Shown here: positions 214 to 6,239 of the stretch, piece by piece
Layout of the letters: every line of letters begins with the position of its first letter
How positions within the stretch are numbered: position 1 is the first letter of the stretch
Source: Chloroflexota bacterium
GTDB lineage: Bacteria > Chloroflexota > Anaerolineae > Fen-1058
DNA length: 6,239 nucleotides
Reading direction: 5' to 3'
Assembly: GCA_016219235.1 (NCBI GenBank)
Contig: JACRBO010000742.1
Coordinates: forward strand, 1 to 6,239
Program-made: the position numbers and the translations under genes
The notes under the pieces: model-generated
Database searches by the model: none
What the model was told of the DNA's origin: nothing
Seen by the model: only the letters and a program-made list of their open reading frames with translations

Positions 214-1800
214 ATGGATCCCATACTGATTATCGCTTTGGTGGTAAGCGTGGTGCTGCTGGTCGTCTTGAGCGCGATCTCGCTTCGGCGGCGACGGCGC
301 ACGCCTAAAGCGCCACGCACTAAGGGCCGGGGCAAGGTTGCGCCGGTACCGACGACCCTGTCGGCTGAAGACGAGCAATTGTTGGAGACGCTGGGTGGCA
401 CCAAGCGGGTAATCGCTACGCCCGCCGCCGAAGCGCCGTCCCCCAAACCCGCACCGGAAACCCCGGTTTCGAAAATCGAAGGGCCGCTCAAGCCGATCAA
501 TGTTGCGCCGCTTAGCCCGCGCAGCGGATCGCGCGCCTCGGCCGAACACGGCAAGATTCGCATTCTGGTGGTGGACGACAACAAGGACACGCGCGACAAT
601 GTGTCGCGCTTGATTGCGTTTGAGCCGGACATGGAAGTGGTGGGGCAGGCGTTTAACGGCAAACAAGCGGTGGATGAAGCCATTAACCTGCGCCCGCATA
701 TCGTGTTGATGGATATCAACATGCCGGATATGGACGGCATTCAAGCCACGCGCGAGATGGTAGTGCGCGCACCCTACAGCCAGATCATCATCATGTCCGT
801 GCAGTTTGAAACCGATTATATGCGCGCGGCGATGCTGGCCGGGGCGCGTGACTATCAGACCAAGCCGTTCAGCGCCGATGAGTTGGTGAACTGTATCCGG
901 CGGGTGTATGACATTGGGCGGCCCATCTACCAGAAACTGGAACTTGCCGATCGTTCGCTCCAGCCCACCGAAGTGGCGGTGGTCGCGGCCAGTACCGCGC
1001 CCATCAATGGCGCGACGACACCGGTCCTGATGGTCTATAGCCCTAAAGGCGGCACGGGCAAGACGGCGATGGCGATTAATCTGGCCGCGGCGCTGCGGCG
1101 CGATCTGGACAGCGTGACGCTGCTGGACGCCGATCTGCAGATGGGCGACCTGCCGATCGATCTCAACATCCGGCCGGCCGCCACACTGACAGAACTCATC
1201 GCCAGCAGCCGGCCTGATCCGGCGTTGCTGCCGTCAATTTTGCAGGCGCACTCGTCGGGTATCAATGTGCTGTTTGCGCCTCAGAAACCTGAACTCAGCG
1301 AATTGATTACGGGCAATATGATGATCCAGGTGGTGCGGGCGGTGAAGACGCAGACGCGGGCGGTGGTCGTGGACACGGCCAGCTATCTGACCGATCACAA
1401 CCTGGCGCTAGTCGAAGCGGCCACCGATGTCCTGCTGGTCATTACGCCCGATCTGCCGTCGGTGAAGAATGCCAAGATGTTCCTGGAACTGGCGCCGGAT
1501 GTGGGCCTCAAGCCGGATCAGATTGCGCTGGTGATCAATCGCGCTACGATGCCCGGGGCGATTCCGGCGCTGCAAATTGAAAGGGCGCTGAAATTGACGC
1601 GCGTCTACGCCATCCCCGATGATCCCAAAATGCGATTGGCGCTGATCAAGGGCGTGTCGATCTTTCAACTGGATGCGGCCTCGCCGTCAGCCGTCGCGAT
1701 GGAGACCATGGCGAAGGCGATCTGGCAGCGCCAGATCGCACCGCCGGTGCTGGTGGAAATGGCGCCGCCGACTAAATCGGCCGCGGCCGCGGCAAAGTGA
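214..1800 (+). CDS. Membrane-anchored receiver domain fused to MinD/CpaE (TadZ)-type ATPase
   Basis: This is a 528-residue, three-part protein. Residues about 4-24 are a single hydrophobic helix followed by five arginines (25-29), so the bulk of the protein should be cytoplasmic. A Pro/Ala/Lys-rich linker runs to about 113. Residues 114-236 form a response-regulator receiver with the acidic pair D121-D122, phospho-acceptor D167 in LMDINMPDMDG, S195, Y214 and K217, all intact. Residues about 270-503 form a MinD/ParA-like ATPase with the deviant Walker A motif KGGTGKT (278-284), Walker A' LDADLQMGD (304-312) and Walker B VVVDTA (384-389). The order receiver then ATPase is that of CpaE/TadZ, which localises the Flp/Tad pilus secretion machine to a cell site. 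No other tad/cpa gene is visible, so a pilus role is inferred from architecture alone. Many CpaE/TadZ receivers have lost the phospho-acceptor, whereas this one looks phosphorylatable. Start 214 has a good ribosome site; GTG 193 would add seven residues. Confidence 0.88.
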   Translation: MDPILIIALVVSVVLLVVLSAISLRRRRRTPKAPRTKGRGKVAPVPTTLSAEDEQLLETLGGTKRVIATPAAEAPSPKPAPETPVSKIEGPLKPINVAPLSPRSGSRASAEHGKIRILVVDDNKDTRDNVSRLIAFEPDMEVVGQAFNGKQAVDEAINLRPHIVLMDINMPDMDGIQATREMVVRAPYSQIIIMSVQFETDYMRAAMLAGARDYQTKPFSADELVNCIRRVYDIGRPIYQKLELADRSLQPTEVAVVAASTAPINGATTPVLMVYSPKGGTGKTAMAINLAAALRRDLDSVTLLDADLQMGDLPIDLNIRPAATLTELIASSRPDPALLPSILQAHSSGINVLFAPQKPELSELITGNMMIQVVRAVKTQTRAVVVDTASYLTDHNLALVEAATDVLLVITPDLPSVKNAKMFLELAPDVGLKPDQIALVINRATMPGAIPALQIERALKLTRVYAIPDDPKMRLALIKGVSIFQLDAASPSAVAMETMAKAIWQRQIAPPVLVEMAPPTKSAAAAAK

Positions 1801-1827
1801 CTGGTAACTGGTTGACTGGTAACTGGT
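1798..1827 (+). repeat. Two perfect tandem copies of a 15-bp unit, beginning on a stop codon
   Basis: The unit TGACTGGTAACTGGT occurs at 1798-1812 and 1813-1827, and a third copy starts (TGACC) at 1828. The first three bases are the TGA stop of the ATPase gene. Internally the unit contains CTGGTAA followed by a diverged copy, CTGGTTGA, so it looks built from 7-8 bp subunits. CCGATTAC occurs at 1831-1838 and again at 1853-1860 in the flank. Confidence 0.9.
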
Positions 1828-1847
1828 TGACCGATTACCAGTTGGCC
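1810..1847 (+). repeat. Imperfect inverted repeat (hairpin) after the ATPase gene
   Basis: Arms 1810-1826 and 1831-1847 pair over 17 positions around a TTGA loop (1827-1830): 12 Watson-Crick pairs, 4 G-T pairs and one C/A mismatch. The left arm is taken from the 15-bp tandem repeat. No T-tract follows, so it does not look like a classical intrinsic terminator. It fills part of the 79-bp gap to the next gene and could affect the mRNA end; no function is shown by the sequence. Confidence 0.65.
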
Positions 1848-1879
1848 GCTTACCGATTACGCACCTCGCGGGGGCGAAC

Positions 1880-2863
1880 ATGTTGGCAAATTTGCGCGCC
1901 GTCTGGCGACCGGCCATGTATCACGGCCACGGCCAGCGGCGCAACTTTTTTGAAGGCTGGTATTACAAGCTGGTCGATGCGGCCGAAAGCCACGTCCACG
2001 CCATAATCCCCGGCGTGTTTCTGGGCAAAGACGCCTCCGCTTCGCACTGCTTTGTGCAAGTGCTCGACGGCGCAACCGGCCACTCCACGTATCACCGCTA
2101 TCCGCTCGATCGGTTCTGGGCGTCCAAATATGAACTCGATCTGCGCGTCGGGCCGAATCGTTTCTACCTCGATCGAATCCAATTGGACCTCGACGATACC
2201 GATCGTTCCTTGCGCGGTGAACTTCACTTTGACGGCGTGACGCCGTGGCCGGTGACGCCGACCTCGCCGGGCATCATGGGGCCGTATTCGTTTGCCCCGT
2301 TCATGGAATGCTATCACGGCGTGCTGGGCTTCGATCACGCGCTGCGCGGCTCGTTGATGATGAACGGCGAGTCGATCAACTTCGACGGCGGGCGCGGCTA
2401 CATGGAGAAGGATTGGGGCAGGGCGTTTCCGCAGGCTTGGGTGTGGGGGCAGAGCAATCATTTCGATCATGTGGGCACCTCGATGACGGTTTCTGTCGCG
2501 ACAATTCCGTGGCTGCGCACGTCGTTTCGCGGTTTCATCATCGGGCTGTGGCATGAGCGACAGCTCTATCGTTTCGCCACGTACACCGGCGCGACGATCA
2601 CGAGTCTCAAGTTGACGGACACGCATGTCGTCTTGCGCGTGGAGGACAAGCACCATCGCCTTGAGGTGGATGCGGCTCGCAGTGAGGGCGGCTTGCTCCA
2701 CGCGCCCTATCGCACCGACATGCTGCAGCGTGTGACCGAAAGTCTGACGGCCACCATCGCGGTGAAGTTGATCGATCAATCGGGCAATGTGATCTTTGAA
2801 GGCGTCGGTCGGCACGCCGGGTTAGAGATCAACGGCGAGATTCAGCAGATAGTAGATAAGTAG
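1880..2863 (+). CDS. Tocopherol cyclase family protein
   Basis: This is a 327-residue soluble-looking protein with no signal peptide or membrane helix. It carries family hallmarks I associate with tocopherol cyclase (VTE1-like) proteins: NFFEGWYYKLV at residues 22-32, a GPYSFAPFMECYHGV block at 134-148, and GRGYMEKDWGRAFPQAWVW at 171-189 followed by QSNHF. Plant and cyanobacterial members close the chromanol ring of tocopherols. Many non-photosynthetic bacteria carry shorter relatives whose substrate is unknown, and this looks like one of them; no other tocopherol gene is in view. The fold is expected to be lipocalin-like, of the CrtC/AttH type. ATG 1880 follows GGGGG (1870-1874) by five bases, and its N-terminus leads directly into the conserved region. 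The last codon and the stop lie inside the first unit of an octamer repeat array. The family call is firm; a real cyclase activity is not established. Confidence 0.85.
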   Translation: MLANLRAVWRPAMYHGHGQRRNFFEGWYYKLVDAAESHVHAIIPGVFLGKDASASHCFVQVLDGATGHSTYHRYPLDRFWASKYELDLRVGPNRFYLDRIQLDLDDTDRSLRGELHFDGVTPWPVTPTSPGIMGPYSFAPFMECYHGVLGFDHALRGSLMMNGESINFDGGRGYMEKDWGRAFPQAWVWGQSNHFDHVGTSMTVSVATIPWLRTSFRGFIIGLWHERQLYRFATYTGATITSLKLTDTHVVLRVEDKHHRLEVDAARSEGGLLHAPYRTDMLQRVTESLTATIAVKLIDQSGNVIFEGVGRHAGLEINGEIQQIVDK

Positions 2864-2923
2864 ACAGGGAAACAAGGAGACAAGTAGACAGGGAAACTTG
2901 TTTCCTTATTTCCTTGTCTACTT
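2858..2923 (+). repeat. Octamer-based inverted repeat overlapping the stop codon
   Basis: From 2858 to 2897 the sequence reads as five consecutive octamers: AAGTAGAC, AGGGAAAC, AAGGAGAC, AAGTAGAC, AGGGAAAC. It therefore includes a 16-bp direct repeat at 2858-2873 and 2882-2897. From 2898 to 2923 the same octamer family runs in reverse complement. Arms 2858-2883 and 2898-2923 pair over 26 positions with 23 Watson-Crick pairs, 2 G-T pairs and one C/A mismatch, around a 14-base loop. The first unit includes the last sense codon AAG and the TAG stop of the tocopherol-cyclase-like gene. No T-tract follows. Confidence 0.85.
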
Positions 2924-2943
2924 CCCCTAACCTGCGGTATACT
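2914..2943 (+). promoter_or_regulatory. Candidate sigma-70-type promoter for the bkd cluster
   Basis: TTGTCT at 2914-2919 (4 of 6 to TTGACA) and TATACT at 2938-2943 (5 of 6 to TATAAT) are separated by 18 bases, in the longest gap of the window. Transcription would start near 2950, giving a leader of about 70 bases before ATG 3018. The -35 box lies inside the right arm of the octamer inverted repeat, so the repeat may have contributed the promoter. The call rests on consensus similarity only. Confidence 0.45.
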
Positions 2944-2962
2944 CTCTTTGTAATTTCTGCCT

Positions 2963-2992
2963 AACTCGCACGGTCAGCCAATCGGGCGAGTT
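2963..2992 (+). other. Small hairpin in the bkd leader
   Basis: AACTCGC (2963-2969) and GCGAGTT (2986-2992) form a perfect 7-bp stem with a 16-base loop, inside the predicted leader of E1 alpha and 12 bases before its ribosome site. Loop bases GGTCA (2972-2976) are complementary to TGACC (2992-2996), which would give an H-type pseudoknot arrangement if the shared base is released. I recognise no known riboswitch; chance is possible at this length. Confidence 0.35.
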
Positions 2993-3004
2993 GACCAGCA
3001 ATCC

Positions 3005-3012
3005 AGGGGGGA
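3005..3012 (+). promoter_or_regulatory. Shine-Dalgarno site for E1 alpha, selecting ATG 3018
   Basis: AGGGGGGA ends five bases before ATG 3018. The longest open frame would start at TTG 2991, upstream of this purine run, so the run would then be coding. A second ATG at 3024 is eleven bases from the run and less well placed. Confidence 0.65.
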
Positions 3013-3017
3013 CTTCG

Positions 3018-4037
3018 ATGGTCATGACTCCGGCTTTAGTCGCCGCAGAGCCGAGCACTGCCTCGTTCGGCGATCTTCCGTCTGATCTGTTGCTTGACAT
3101 GTATGAAGCCATGCTGCGCGCTCGTCGATTGGACGAGCGCTGTTGGCTCTTGCATCGTCAGGGCAAGATCGCGTTTCATATTTCGGGCATGGGGCACGAG
3201 GCCGCGCAAGTGGGCATTGTGTTCGCGTTGCGGCGCGGCGACGATCATCTGCTGCCCTACTATCGCGATCTGGCAATGGTACTGGCCTGTGGCATGACGC
3301 CCCTCGACGTGATGCTGGGCGTGTTTGGCAAGCAGAGCGATCCCAGTTCGGGCGGGCGGCAGATGCCCGAACACTACTCGCTGCGCGCAAAGAACATCTA
3401 CAGCGTGTCCAGCCCGGTGGCGACGCAAGTGCCGCAGGCCGCGGGCGTGGCGCTGGCCGAGAAGTTGAAGGGCGGCGATCGGGTCGCAGTGACGTGTTTG
3501 GGCGAAGGCTCCACCAATCAAGGCGATTTTCATGAGGCGCTGACGTGGGCGGGTGTCCACAAATTACCACTCATCGTCGTGGTGGAGAACAACGAATACG
3601 CCATCTCGGTGCCGATGGAGAAGCAAATGGCGATCCCGCGCGTGTCCGATCGCGCGCAGGCCTACGGTGTGCGCGGCGTGACAGTGGACGGCCTTGATCC
3701 GGTGGCGACCTATCTGGCGATGAAGGACGCGGTCGAGCTGGCGCGCGCGGGCGGCGGGACCACGCTGTTTGAAGCGCGCGTGGTGCGCCTGACACCGCAC
3801 TCGTCGGACGATGACGATAGCGCGTATCGCTCGAAGGAAGAGAAGGTTGTGCTCAAGGCTTCCGATCCGTTGCCGATTTTCCGCGAACGGCTCAAGGCGG
3901 CGGGCGTGTTGACGGATCAACTCGAGATGGAGTTGGATGCGCGCGTGATGGCCGAAGTCAACGCGGCCCATCTCGACGCCGAACGCGCACCCTATCCTGA
4001 GATTGAGTGGGCGGCGGGACCGGTGTACGCAGCGTAA
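3018..4037 (+). CDS. bkdAA: Branched-chain 2-oxoacid dehydrogenase E1 component, alpha subunit
   Basis: This 339-residue protein is the normal length for bacterial E1 alpha. With E1 beta it binds thiamine diphosphate, decarboxylates a 2-oxoacid and transfers the acyl group to lipoyl-E2. The ThDP/Mg motif is GEGSTNQGDFHEA (162-174) with the closing ENN at 190-192 and YAISVP at 194-199. YYRD (81-84) and SSPVATQVPQAAG (131-143) are further conserved active-site stretches. The loop LTPHSSDDDDSAYRS (258-272) corresponds to the regulated E1 alpha loop and has the form typical of branched-chain dehydrogenases. GEG in place of GDG is also usual in that branch, so I favour 2-oxoisovalerate-type over pyruvate; related pyruvate or acetoin enzymes cannot be fully excluded. 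It is followed by E1 beta and E2, consistent with one operon. ATG 3018 is chosen on its ribosome site. Its TAA stop is directly followed by a heptamer array. Confidence 0.9.
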   Translation: MVMTPALVAAEPSTASFGDLPSDLLLDMYEAMLRARRLDERCWLLHRQGKIAFHISGMGHEAAQVGIVFALRRGDDHLLPYYRDLAMVLACGMTPLDVMLGVFGKQSDPSSGGRQMPEHYSLRAKNIYSVSSPVATQVPQAAGVALAEKLKGGDRVAVTCLGEGSTNQGDFHEALTWAGVHKLPLIVVVENNEYAISVPMEKQMAIPRVSDRAQAYGVRGVTVDGLDPVATYLAMKDAVELARAGGGTTLFEARVVRLTPHSSDDDDSAYRSKEEKVVLKASDPLPIFRERLKAAGVLTDQLEMELDARVMAEVNAAHLDAERAPYPEIEWAAGPVYAA

Positions 4038-4087
4038 CGAGTAATGAGTAACGAGTAAATTGCTGGTTACTCATTACTCGTTACTCG
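4038..4087 (+). repeat. Heptamer (YGAGTAA) inverted array between E1 alpha and E1 beta
   Basis: Three head-to-tail heptamers, CGAGTAA, TGAGTAA, CGAGTAA (4038-4058), are followed by an 8-base spacer and then three in reverse orientation, TTACTCA, TTACTCG, TTACTCG (4067-4087). The 21-base arms pair with 19 Watson-Crick pairs, one T-G pair and one C/A mismatch. The array starts on the base after the E1 alpha stop. Its TAA triplets at 4042, 4049 and 4056 fall in all three frames. No T-tract follows the right arm. Confidence 0.92.
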
Positions 4088-4107
4088 TCAAGCCAAGAAT
4101 CATTGAC

Positions 4108-4113
4108 GGGGGA
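4108..4113 (+). promoter_or_regulatory. Shine-Dalgarno site for E1 beta, selecting ATG 4123
   Basis: GGGGGA lies nine bases before ATG 4123, slightly long but acceptable spacing. The longest open frame begins at a TTG at 4060 in the loop of the heptamer hairpin and would add 21 residues encoded mostly by repeat sequence. E1 beta proteins normally begin a few residues before the TLIEGIREAMDEEL block, which fits ATG 4123. Confidence 0.65.
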
Positions 4114-4122
4114 CACAACGGC

Positions 4123-5106
4123 ATGGCCGAAAAGACCTTAATTGAAGGTATCCGCGAGGCGATGGACGAAGAACTCGCGCGCGATGACAGTGTGTTTATC
4201 ACGGGGGAAGACGTAGGCCCGCGCGGCGGCGTGTTTCGCGCGACGCTGGGTCTGTTTGCGAAGTACGGACCCACGCGCGTGATCGATTCGCCGCTGGCGG
4301 AACTCTCGATCGTGGCGGTGGGCATCGGCGCGGCGATGAACGGCCTGCGCCCCATCTGCGAAATTCAATTCGCCGACTTCATTCAACCGGCTTATAACCA
4401 GATCGTGAACGAAGCGGCGCGCATGTACTATCGAACCGGCGGCACGTTCACCGTCCCGATGGTCATTCGCACGCCCTACGGCGGCGGCATCGGCGGCGGA
4501 CTGTATCACTCGCAATCGATCGAGGCCACTTACGCGCACGTGCCCGGCTTGAAGGTCGTGATCCCCTCGAATCCGCGCGATGCCAAGGGCTTGCTGAAAA
4601 GCGCCGTGCGCGACAACAATCCTGTACTGTTTCTGGAACCGAAGAAGGGCTATCGTTTGATCAAAGGCGACGTGCCCGCAGACGACTACACCGTTCCGAT
4701 CGGGGTGGCGAACGTCACGCGCGAAGGCGTTGATCTCAGTGTATACGCTTACGGCATGATGCACTTTTATTGTATGCAAGCGGCCGAAGAAGTGGCGAAA
4801 GATGGCATCGACGTGGAAGTGGTCGATCTGCGCACGCTCAATCCGCTGGACAAAGCCACAGTGTTGGAGTCGTTCAAGAAAACAGGCAAAGCCCTCATTG
4901 TGTATGAGGACAATCGGTTCCTGGGTTACGGCGCGGAGATTGCGGCCATCCTCGCGGACGAGGGCTTCCGCTACATGGACGCGCCCATCATGCGCGTGGC
5001 CGGGCCGGATGTGCCCGCCGTGCCGTACAGCCATCCGCTGCAAGACTGGTTCATGCCCAATCCGAAGAAGATTGCGGATGCGATGAGGCAATTGGCGAGA
5101 TACTGA
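4123..5106 (+). CDS. bkdAB: Branched-chain 2-oxoacid dehydrogenase E1 component, beta subunit
   Basis: This 327-residue protein matches the usual length of about 325. It forms the alpha2-beta2 E1 heterotetramer with the preceding gene product and supplies part of the thiamine-diphosphate site. The N-terminal pyrimidine-binding domain (about 4-180) shows GEDVG (28-32), DSPLAE (55-60), whose glutamate E60 is in the position that activates the cofactor, and YHSQS (128-132) with the conserved active-site histidine H129. A transketolase-C domain follows (about 195-320), with VDLRTLNPLD (234-243) and AGPDVPAVPYS (293-303). The stretch YRLIKGDVPADDYTVPIG (177-194) is close to what I recall of Bacillus BkdAB and differs from pyruvate E1 beta, supporting a branched-chain substrate. 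The E1 alpha gene is 85 bp upstream and E2 is 98 bp downstream. Those gaps are wider than usual for such operons because each is mostly a repeat array. Confidence 0.92.
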   Translation: MAEKTLIEGIREAMDEELARDDSVFITGEDVGPRGGVFRATLGLFAKYGPTRVIDSPLAELSIVAVGIGAAMNGLRPICEIQFADFIQPAYNQIVNEAARMYYRTGGTFTVPMVIRTPYGGGIGGGLYHSQSIEATYAHVPGLKVVIPSNPRDAKGLLKSAVRDNNPVLFLEPKKGYRLIKGDVPADDYTVPIGVANVTREGVDLSVYAYGMMHFYCMQAAEEVAKDGIDVEVVDLRTLNPLDKATVLESFKKTGKALIVYEDNRFLGYGAEIAAILADEGFRYMDAPIMRVAGPDVPAVPYSHPLQDWFMPNPKKIADAMRQLARY

Positions 5107-5169
5107 TGAGTAATGAGTAACGAGTAATACGTAATGGGAGTCGGATTACTCGTTACTTGTTACTCATTA
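5107..5169 (+). repeat. Heptamer (YGAGTAA) inverted array between E1 beta and E2
   Basis: The left side is TGAGTAA, TGAGTAA, CGAGTAA and a degenerate TACGTAA (5107-5134). After a 9-base loop (5136-5144) the reverse units TTACTCG, TTACTTG, TTACTCA follow. Arms 5111-5135 and 5145-5169 align over 25 positions with 21 Watson-Crick pairs, 2 G-T pairs and 2 mismatches. It is the same unit family as the array after E1 alpha: the first 21 bases differ by one base. It begins directly after the E1 beta TGA stop and again has TAA in all three frames (5111, 5118, 5125). There is no T-tract. Confidence 0.92.
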
Positions 5170-5204: not shown

Positions 5205-6239
5205 ATGGGCACACAAGTCATCATGCCGCAGTTGGGCGAGAGCGTGGTTGAAGGAAAAATCAGCCGCTGGTTGAAGCAGGTCGGTGAGCAAGTGGCCTTA
5301 TACGAACCGATTCTGGAAGTTGAGACGGATAAGGTTACGACCGAAGTGACGGCGGCGGGTGAAGGCACGCTGTTGAAATTGTACTTCAATGAAGGCGACG
5401 TGGTGAAGGCCGGCACGCTGATTGCCTTCATCGGCGCGGCAGGCGAGTTGGTCACTGAGACACCGACTGTAACCCCCGCCCACTCGCCGGCATCTAAGAT
5501 GGAGCGGCATGGCAACGGATCGAACGCGCGGATTTCGCCGGTGGTGGCCCGCATCGCGGCGGAGCATCACGTCGATGTGTCGCAGATCAACGGCACGGGC
5601 GAGGGCGGCCGCGTCACGAAGAAAGATATTCTGGCCTACGTCGAGCGGCAGTCGCAGGCACAGCCGGTGGTTGAACAAAAATTGGAGCCGTGGGAACAGC
5701 CCGGCCTGGGCGAACTCTTCAGGCCAAGCGAAGAAGTCTTCGGCAAGCCAACGGCGGCGATCCCGGCGGCCCCGAGTGTTCCGCCCGGCCCAACGGCCAG
5801 CGTGTCGGATGAAGTGGTGCCATTGACGGGCATCCGCAAAGCCATTGCCGATCACATGGTCATGTCGAAGCGCACCAGCCCGCACGTGACCACCGTGTTT
5901 GAAATCGATCTGTCGAAGGTGGTGGCGCATCGCAACGCCAACAAAGCGGCCTTCGAGCGCGACGGTGTGAACCTGACGTTTACGCCGTATTTTGCGGCGG
6001 CGACGATCGTGGCGTTGAAGCGTTTTCCGCTGGTGAACTCATCATGGAGCGAGGGCGGCGTCGTCGTGCATCGCGCGGTGAACCTGGGCATTGCGGTGTC
6101 GCTGGGCGCGGATGGACTGATCGTGCCCGTGATCAAGCACGCGGAAGGACTGAACTTATTTGGATTAGCGCGCGCGGTGAACGAGCTGGCCGATCGGGCG
6201 CGGCATAAACAACTGAGGCCGGATGATGTACAGGGCGGC
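5205..6239 (+). CDS. bkdB: 2-oxoacid dehydrogenase E2, dihydrolipoamide acyltransferase (3' end outside window)
   Basis: The open frame runs off the right edge after 345 codons. E2 carries the acyl group on a swinging lipoyl arm and transfers it to CoA; it also forms the core that binds E1 and E3. Residues about 3-77 form one lipoyl domain, with the lipoylated lysine K43 in VETDKVTTE. Residues about 108-146 are the peripheral-subunit-binding domain (RISPVVARIAAEHHVDV, then GTGEGGRVTKKDIL). A linker (about 147-204) leads to the acyltransferase domain, beginning near VVPLTGIRKAIADHM (204-218), with SPHVTTVFEIDLS (225-237) and GLIVPVIKHAE (304-314). The catalytic HxxxDG motif should lie roughly 60-80 residues past the edge, so activity cannot be confirmed here. 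A complete protein of about 420-440 residues is expected. The assignment to branched-chain substrates comes from the E1 neighbours, not from E2 itself. The linker contains an unusual acidic/aromatic segment at 161-180. Confidence 0.92.
   Translation, partial: MGTQVIMPQLGESVVEGKISRWLKQVGEQVALYEPILEVETDKVTTEVTAAGEGTLLKLYFNEGDVVKAGTLIAFIGAAGELVTETPTVTPAHSPASKMERHGNGSNARISPVVARIAAEHHVDVSQINGTGEGGRVTKKDILAYVERQSQAQPVVEQKLEPWEQPGLGELFRPSEEVFGKPTAAIPAAPSVPPGPTASVSDEVVPLTGIRKAIADHMVMSKRTSPHVTTVFEIDLSKVVAHRNANKAAFERDGVNLTFTPYFAAATIVALKRFPLVNSSWSEGGVVVHRAVNLGIAVSLGADGLIVPVIKHAEGLNLFGLARAVNELADRARHKQLRPDDVQGG

Follow-up and report, generated by a model that had tools for sequence, protein, structure and literature searches.

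Dispersed arrays of short tandem units, many folded back at stop codons, in a Chloroflexota gene run and its relatives

Introduction

Tandem heptamers in the gaps between genes are a familiar feature of cyanobacteria (short tandemly repeated repetitive sequences, STRR), and we know of no stop-anchored inversion among them. Here we study a stretch of 6,239 nucleotides from a Chloroflexota bacterium (contig JACRBO010000742.1 of assembly GCA_016219235.1; hereafter the window), in which four consecutive gene ends each carry an array of 7-, 8- or 15-bp tandem units followed by a reversed copy of the same units. Comparing the window with related genomes and with phage contigs, we find that such arrays are dispersed, that they sit at stop codons more often than gap size explains, and that their unit sequence differs at orthologous sites. 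The interpretation that we favour, with moderate confidence, is that they are satellite-like heptamer and octamer repeats which change by slippage and unit turnover and are tolerated where they lie, rather than being a dedicated hairpin signal.

The closest described systems are the heptamers of Xanthomonas (GGGAATC) and Nostoc (GGGGA(C/T)T), whose positions are loose (GGGANTN) (PMC4692102); like the other published systems below, they are described here from part of their source. Each Xanthomonas genome holds 183-186 heptamer sets, most often of four units, lying mostly between aligned open reading frames (ORFs) and nearer the upstream of the two genes (mean distance 28 nt), with some over its stop; there are 70-75 inverted pairs per genome, 7-11% lie in genes, their length differs between two species and 83% keep the same gene context (PMC4692102). 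Inverted heptamers close to stops are already in print for Xanthomonas; a first-pass annotation of the window knew of no description of the stop-anchored inverted form. The arrays studied here resemble the Xanthomonas and Nostoc repeats in being dispersed heptamers in aligned-ORF gaps near the upstream stop, in forming inverted pairs and in being rare in coding DNA per kb. They differ in that one G-rich family was studied per genome there, whereas here many families share a genome and no G-tract rule applies: there is no G tract in GTAAYGA, AGTGANN or CACGCAC, and the 8-bp unit AGGGAAAC of the window has one GGG. They also differ in that the stop is in phase with the unit and that units are replaced at orthologous sites, whereas the Xanthomonas sets mostly stay in place.

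Several other systems share single features with these arrays. The TAACTGA repeats of marine Beggiatoaceae are likewise intergenic heptamers containing stops (TAA and TGA; their author notes stops in all frames), and 14 sets overlap the end of the upstream ORF; unlike the present arrays they lie mostly just before start codons and are direct repeats, with one inverted case in 170 and related heptamers rare (PMC4679880). Heptanucleotide elements of Geobacter metallireducens are dispersed and tandem, in and between genes (PMC2700814), and Chloroflexus aurantiacus, from the phylum of the window, carries dispersed tandem heptamers as (GATAGRA)n satellites (PMC6749651); the parts of these two reports used here describe neither stop anchoring nor fold-back at stops. 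Rickettsia palindromic elements (RPEs) are also short palindromic DNA found in frame inside proteins, in conserved families of about 150 bp, and are not tandem heptamers (PMC10969869). Repetitive extragenic palindromes with their associated transposases (REP/RAYT) are described as a single conserved palindrome of 20-40 bp that bears an end tag (GTAG or CGTC) and is linked to a Y1 transposase. The arrays here are instead tandem and of many families, and Y1_Tnp is present in 16/17 genomes whatever their array load (the comparison did not include a search for the end tag). The passages of PMC3543383 consulted contain nothing on heptamers. Within the open-licence papers searched we found no description of in-phase stops, of unit replacement at orthologous gaps or of loop arrays in Chloroflexota proteins; with Xanthomonas and Nostoc so close, we regard the arrays as a variant of already described heptamer repeats.

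Results

Four gene ends in the window carry fold-back arrays

The four arrays of the window are:

1797-1860, + strand: array 1, two copies of TGACTGGTAACTGGT, then a reversed arm; fold z -4.78; Tandem Repeats Finder period 15, 100% match
2858-2923, + strand: array 2, 8-bp units AAGTAGAC/AGGGAAAC, then a reversed arm; fold z -6.55; inverted repeat of 28 nt, 89% complementary
4034-4088, + strand: array 3, GTAAYGA units, then a reversed arm; fold z -9.55; inverted repeat of 25 nt, 92% complementary
5104-5169, + strand: array 4, GTAAYGA units, then a reversed arm; fold z -6.11; inverted repeat of 26 nt, 88% complementary

RNA folding places stems at 1797-1860, 2858-2923, 4034-4084 and 5104-5169, and for each of the four arrays none of 200 shuffles folds as well. 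In every case the stop codon falls among the six bases that open the 5' stem strand: the TGA stop at 1798-1800 is the first triplet of the repeat unit in array 1, the first unit of array 2 contains the TAG stop at 2861-2863, the later units of array 3 are in phase with the TAA stop at 4035-4037, and the TGA stop at 5104-5106 is the base of the stem in array 4. Three unit types are present, namely a 15-mer that is a pair of a 7-mer and an 8-mer (TGACTGG-TAACTGGT), the 8-mer of array 2 and the 7-mer GTAAYGA. The layout that the first-pass annotation had reported, with tandem units and a reversed copy at all four gene ends and three different unit families, is confirmed; its array positions hold broadly, with the amendments that array 1 extends to about 1860, array 3 begins at 4034 and stem 4 begins at the stop codon. 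With a strict detector covering periods 6-9, which misses array 1 with its period of 15, the window scores 3 fold-back arrays and none of its 300 Markov shuffles scores any. Rfam gives 0 matches at gathering score in the window.

The genes that these arrays follow or precede, all five on the + strand, are:

193-1800, + strand: response-regulator receiver and ParA/MinD-like ATPase gene (Pfam PF00072, PF01656), which we take to be of the CpaE/TadZ type
1880-2863, + strand: tocopherol cyclase-like protein gene (Pfam PF14249)
3018-4037, + strand: 2-oxoacid dehydrogenase E1 alpha gene (Pfam PF00676)
4123-5106, + strand: 2-oxoacid dehydrogenase E1 beta gene (Pfam PF02779, PF02780)
5205-6239, + strand: 2-oxoacid dehydrogenase E2 gene, cut by the window end (Pfam PF00198, PF00364, PF02817)

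Two of the four arrays sit within the E1alpha-E1beta-E2 gene run. Separately, the 3' arm of array 2 contains the first hexamer of a promoter-like match (a consensus match only) at 2914-2943, upstream of the E1alpha gene.

Arrays are dispersed in relatives and hug stop codons

Genome-wide statistics rest on relatives of the window rather than on its own genome. The closest relatives found through E1beta are Anaerolineae/Thermoflexales metagenome-assembled genomes (MAGs) with 90-92% protein identity; from the closest, MAG fen_1063 (7.7 Mb; G001 below), we analysed 60 stretches totalling 1.01 Mb, of which 40 came from contigs with a known GAGTAAY match and 20 were picked by contig number. Further samples were stretches of three other genomes (G009, G010 and G011) and 79 loci fetched for E1beta. 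Genes were called with a simple purpose-made finder instead of a standard tool, and its stops are safer than its starts.

The G001 stretches hold 140 array clusters of periods 7 and 8, of which 37 have the fold-back form. The first-pass annotation had named arrays equally common inside genes as a finding that would tell against it, and this outcome appears only partially: 37 of the 140 clusters lie inside predicted genes, while the density per kb is 0.044 in coding DNA against 0.76 in codirectional gaps, 0.52 in divergent gaps and 0.29 in convergent gaps.

To the hairpins themselves (those containing N being dropped) the same genome contributes 172, of which 44 are made of tandem units and 128 are plain; a wider period range gives 50 and 122, and those 50 have period 7 in 35 cases and period 8 in 7. 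Among hairpins with an adjacent stop, 27/38 tandem ones lie within 8 bp of it, compared with 17/98 plain ones (Fisher p 5e-9). Once the 24 hairpins that fall in genes and the 3 at the edges of stretches are set aside, codirectional gaps hold 37 of the 39 placed tandem hairpins and convergent gaps 1. They are concentrated in codirectional gaps of 50-120 bp, which they nearly fill (29 hairpins per 163 gaps); given gap size, an avoidance of convergent gaps is only weakly indicated, the corresponding figure for convergent gaps of 50-120 bp being 1/20. As a side observation, 28 of the 106 placed plain hairpins lie in convergent gaps.

Is the link to stop codons simply a consequence of short gaps? 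We considered 255 array clusters, fold-back or not (140 from G001, 40 from G009, 21 from G011, 8 from G010 and 46 from the fetched loci), of which 148 are codirectional, 11 convergent, 21 divergent, 62 in genes and 13 at edges; the gap test used neither the edge clusters nor 13 codirectional ones whose gaps are shorter than 40 bp. In short codirectional gaps, 67/77 clusters are anchored against 57.7 expected, so that anchoring there is largely forced. In codirectional gaps of at least 130 bp, 24/58 clusters start within 12 bp of the stop, against 9.1 expected, and 10/58 lie within 12 bp of the next start; fold-back clusters alone (n=13) give 6 within 12 bp of the stop against 3.2 expected (P 0.05). 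The long-gap result rules out a mere short-gap effect, and the association with stop codons that the first-pass annotation had seen in the window is borne out across relatives, beyond gap size.

The gene's stop codon recurs as part of the repeat unit

Of the codirectional arrays, 103 lie no more than 12 bp from a stop; in these, the stop triplet of the gene recurs at lag 7 in 29 arrays, at lag 8 in 8 and at lag 14 in 22, and at every other lag from 4 to 14 in at most 4. The gene's own stop is also the majority stop triplet of the array in 48 of 75 testable arrays, where 30.5 are expected (0/10000 permutations; the 28 arrays without a majority stop triplet were left out), with agreement in 30/38 arrays for TGA, 11/22 for TAA and 7/15 for TAG. 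Array-free gaps have a weaker excess of the same kind, 229/584 against 199.1 expected.

A second signature is the closing of all reading frames. All three frames are stopped within 30 nt past the gene in 34% of the 103 arrays. Array-free gaps (n=1091) reach this in 3% of cases, letter shuffles in 4% and the antisense strand in 13%. Stop triplets in these arrays number 315 in sense and 147 in antisense orientation. In the 62 in-gene arrays of all samples, counting any frame, the bias is reversed (38 on the coding strand, 164 on the antisense strand). The idea that all units must carry stops is ruled out by G011 families such as AGTTCCG.

Unit families differ at orthologous sites

Each genome contains many unit families, and the arrays vary in the sequence of the unit, in the number of units and in the length of the arms; the commonest units in G001 are AGTGANN and CACGCAC. 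By eye, all three closest relatives have arrays in both the E1alpha/E1beta and the E1beta/E2 gaps, and the families differ: AGTGANN and CACGCAC in locus L001, GTAA-type units and inverted GTGA in L002, and GTGA and GTAATGC in L005. More distant relatives have, again by eye, AGTTTTN, AAACTCC, AATACCN, AGTGCTT and an 8-mer in these gaps. An automatic test, which allows arrays only in gaps over 20 bp and hairpins only over 30 bp and whose set includes repeat loci of a few genomes, concurs for both gaps of L001 and L005; in L002 it finds a hairpin at E1beta/E2 only and nothing at E1alpha/E1beta. The two gaps are shorter than 40 bp in 64/83 and 42/80 cases, none of which scored, and those of 40-130 bp score an array or hairpin in 6/14 and 21/29. 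The comparison of the same gaps in related genomes, which the first-pass annotation had proposed, finds by eye arrays at both sites of the three closest relatives with different units. With so many unit families, and different ones at orthologous sites, the arrays cannot be put down to a single mobile sequence, and the earlier view that simple insertion of a single mobile repeat is insufficient stands.

Arrays change by whole units in a phage pair

A search of viral contigs for a single heptamer family turned up 10 stretches. L285 and L286 represent the same Mu-like phage or prophage (portal, terminase and head protein), whose terminase has a Winogradskyella phage as best named relative (49%). 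Stop-anchored fold-back arrays lie between structural genes of this phage, so that phages could carry the arrays. The two phage contigs are 99.66% identical over 8155 aligned nt, and their only internal indels, of 7, 7 and 21 nt, each fall within an array (an apparent 2233-nt indel is an end artefact and was not counted); the arms therefore differ in unit number and length between near-identical contigs. In this one pair, the indels are direct evidence of whole-unit slippage.

Arrays also lie in frame inside proteins

Long open frames in G001 contain 45 arrays of period 7 or 8, and nine of ten array-carrying proteins that were scanned match Pfam families. In a regulator, the array (residues 839-849) lies between a TPR domain ending at 801 and a LuxR domain starting at 853. 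In a fused glycyl-tRNA synthetase alpha-beta chain (L139:7263-10256), a heptamer array occupies the linker, at residues 299-311 between domains that end at 286 and begin at 321, as if an old gene-junction array had turned coding. A LeuC-like enzyme (L128:8175-9494; homologues P0001-P0120) has differing peptides at one loop with conserved flanks in many homologues; among the 120 homologues listed, of 8000 scored, many of the loop peptides look heptamer-encoded and others ordinary. At the DNA level, where 13 of 26 loci were readable, four genomes have four different heptamer sets, three long loops have no clear array and six loops of 13 nt come from more distant homologues. In two further cases (L135:9022-9123 and L141:18188-18261), a single in-gene array switches unit family in register, which suggests exchange between families.

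Pairing, termination and transposition

If the hairpins were selected as RNA, G-U pairs might be expected to outnumber A-C mismatches in their stems. In the 67 codirectional tandem hairpins near stops the ratio of G-U to A-C is 61:62, and in all 81 codirectional tandem hairpins it is 77:76. Arm matching was run on two families, the third having only 4 loci, and in the GTGA family the two arms of one locus resemble each other no more than arms taken from different loci do (13 loci; 964/2000 permutations reach the observed mean). A terminator scan of the window, in which only loops of 3-8 were allowed, made 4 terminator-like calls, none of them at an array, and intrinsic termination was set aside as an explanation for the window arrays on this ground. 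A selected RNA hairpin likewise found no support, there being no G-U bias and arms that are unmatched (GTGA) or weakly matched (GTAA). Together, the wobble, arm-matching, phage arm-length and terminator results count against RNA pairing being under strong selection; the hairpin may still have a weak role or one at the DNA level. The first-pass annotation had invoked a process acting at transcript ends or selection for a hairpin, and this is not supported: the stems lack a G-U bias, no terminator-like call falls at an array of the window, and copies occur in frame inside proteins.

On the side of transposition, a pattern for one family has 73 forward and 101 reverse matches in G001, several per array, against 43 and 37 for the backward-read control. 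The HUH transposase family Y1_Tnp is found in 16/17 genomes, including 7 of the 8 that have no forward or reverse AGTNNNN match (two of these 8 match its control pattern). A linked HUH transposase was dropped as a discriminator, Y1_Tnp being present whatever the array load. Comparison with miniature inverted-repeat transposable elements (MITEs) and RPEs found no fixed element across arrays.

The array form is patchy in Chloroflexota

The fold-back form is unevenly spread: tandem hairpins are absent from the 400 kb of G010, number 2 in the 400 kb of G011 and 10 in the 262 kb of G009; of the 79 loci fetched for E1beta, 23 have an array cluster and 11 a fold-back cluster. Four cultured strains were searched with a TGA-heptamer pattern; Longilinea arvoryzae KOME-1 gives 27 overlapping matches, against 2 for the backward control, and the three others give none. 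As a cultured strain carries heptamer matches, the arrays are not an assembly artefact. In 13 stretches chosen for matches to this pattern, plus L041, 10/17 array clusters are no further than 12 bp from a stop. In Chloroflexota the array form is patchy, not universal.

Discussion

How could the same layout be kept at gene ends while its sequence changes? In the reading that we favour, arrays lengthen and shorten by whole units through replication slippage, as in the one phage pair, and the unit sequence changes fast at a fixed site, as at the E1-operon gaps and the loop of the LeuC-like enzyme, probably through homogenisation of units and exchange between loci. Arrays would be kept where they are harmless: at stops, often in short codirectional gaps, and in proteins in stop-poor orientations. 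At gene ends the outermost unit often doubles as the gene's stop codon, as the lag statistics show, and homogenising such an array would spread stop-containing units, which would give all-frame closure at gene ends and families that differ mainly by TAA, TGA or TAG. The reversed arm probably stems from fold-back template switching, and the data can be accounted for without any function of the RNA hairpin.

Several observations weigh against this interpretation. By eye, the E1alpha and E1beta proteins stop at much the same residue whichever array comes next, and such constant ends look more precise than random insertion followed by filtering. Slippage was observed in one phage pair only and not in G001, comparison of close relatives revealed no case of a whole array gained or lost, and exchange between loci and fold-back are inferred steps. 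In the GTAA family, arms from one locus match each other better than arms from different loci do (17 loci; 6/2000 permutations), and the order of the arms is nearly fixed (GTAA..TTAC over the reverse by 16 to 1, GTGA..TCAC by 13 to 0), more strongly than we can derive from tolerance plus turnover. In convergent gaps, 10/11 clusters lie within 16 bp of a stop; neutral tolerance alone leaves this, and the stop-hugging in long gaps, unexplained.

One alternative is a selected intercistronic device, in which all-frame stops and a hairpin insulate, stabilise or uncouple neighbouring operon genes. The high rate of all-frame closure (34%, against 3% in array-free gaps and 13% in antisense), the 37/39 placed tandem hairpins in codirectional gaps, the recurrence of the layout with different sequence at the same gaps and also between Mu-like phage genes, and the somewhat matched GTAA arms would all fit. 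We nevertheless consider it unlikely, as the stems have no bias of G-U over A-C (61:62 near stops), GTGA arms are unmatched within loci (964/2000), arm unit numbers differ between near-identical phage contigs, the E1-operon gaps are under 40 bp, too short for most arrays of this sort, in 64/83 and 42/80 cases, and copies occur in frame inside proteins. A wider idea, which we regard as a long shot, makes the stop codon the seed of a convergent class across phyla: the stop and its neighbours would be copied into an all-frame stop array, folded back and rapidly rewritten as an insulator between neighbouring genes in bacteria and phages, free in sequence and kept in place and layout.

Mobile palindromes of the REP/MITE or RPE type, mobilised by a transposase with a preference for gene ends, would account for the dispersal of a family in G001 (73 forward and 101 reverse matches; control 43 and 37) and for the presence in frame in proteins, which resembles RPEs. 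We give this only a slim chance: there is no fixed element, with unit sequence, unit number and arm length all varying, and Y1_Tnp, the sole transposase family searched, occurs in 16/17 genomes, 7/8 AGTNNNN-free ones included. Local birth, in which each array grew from the stop neighbourhood of its own gene by slippage and fold-back, agrees with the stop codon being in phase as first unit in many arrays and with the match between array unit and gene stop, and is nonetheless very improbable, since identical 7-mers at dozens of G001 sites (among the matches listed) would not be given by independent births without exchange.

If tolerance with slippage and unit turnover is the right account, some members of a large environmental group have their gene ends and protein loops written by a fast repeat process, which supplies stop codons and in-frame peptides and swaps the unit between related species while keeping its place. 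The arrays link the scattered heptamer reports from Xanthomonas, Nostoc, Beggiatoaceae, Geobacter and Chloroflexus, and, with at least one cultured strain carrying them, they bring within reach of experiment the long-standing question of why units of seven bases are favoured in bacterial satellites. For annotators there is a caution that such peptides and hairpins may lack function.

Other palindromes

The G001 stretches (L111-L170) also contain other dispersed palindromes, among them GGAGTCGAGGCTTTAGCCGG, AGAAACCGGGTTTCT and ACGCTCCTGCTGGATG. In the gap after the response-regulator/ParA gene, two relatives (L001 6461-6589 and L002 2714-2899) have in common, by eye, a hairpin-like ACTGCGT..CGCAGTTT, which may be a terminator.

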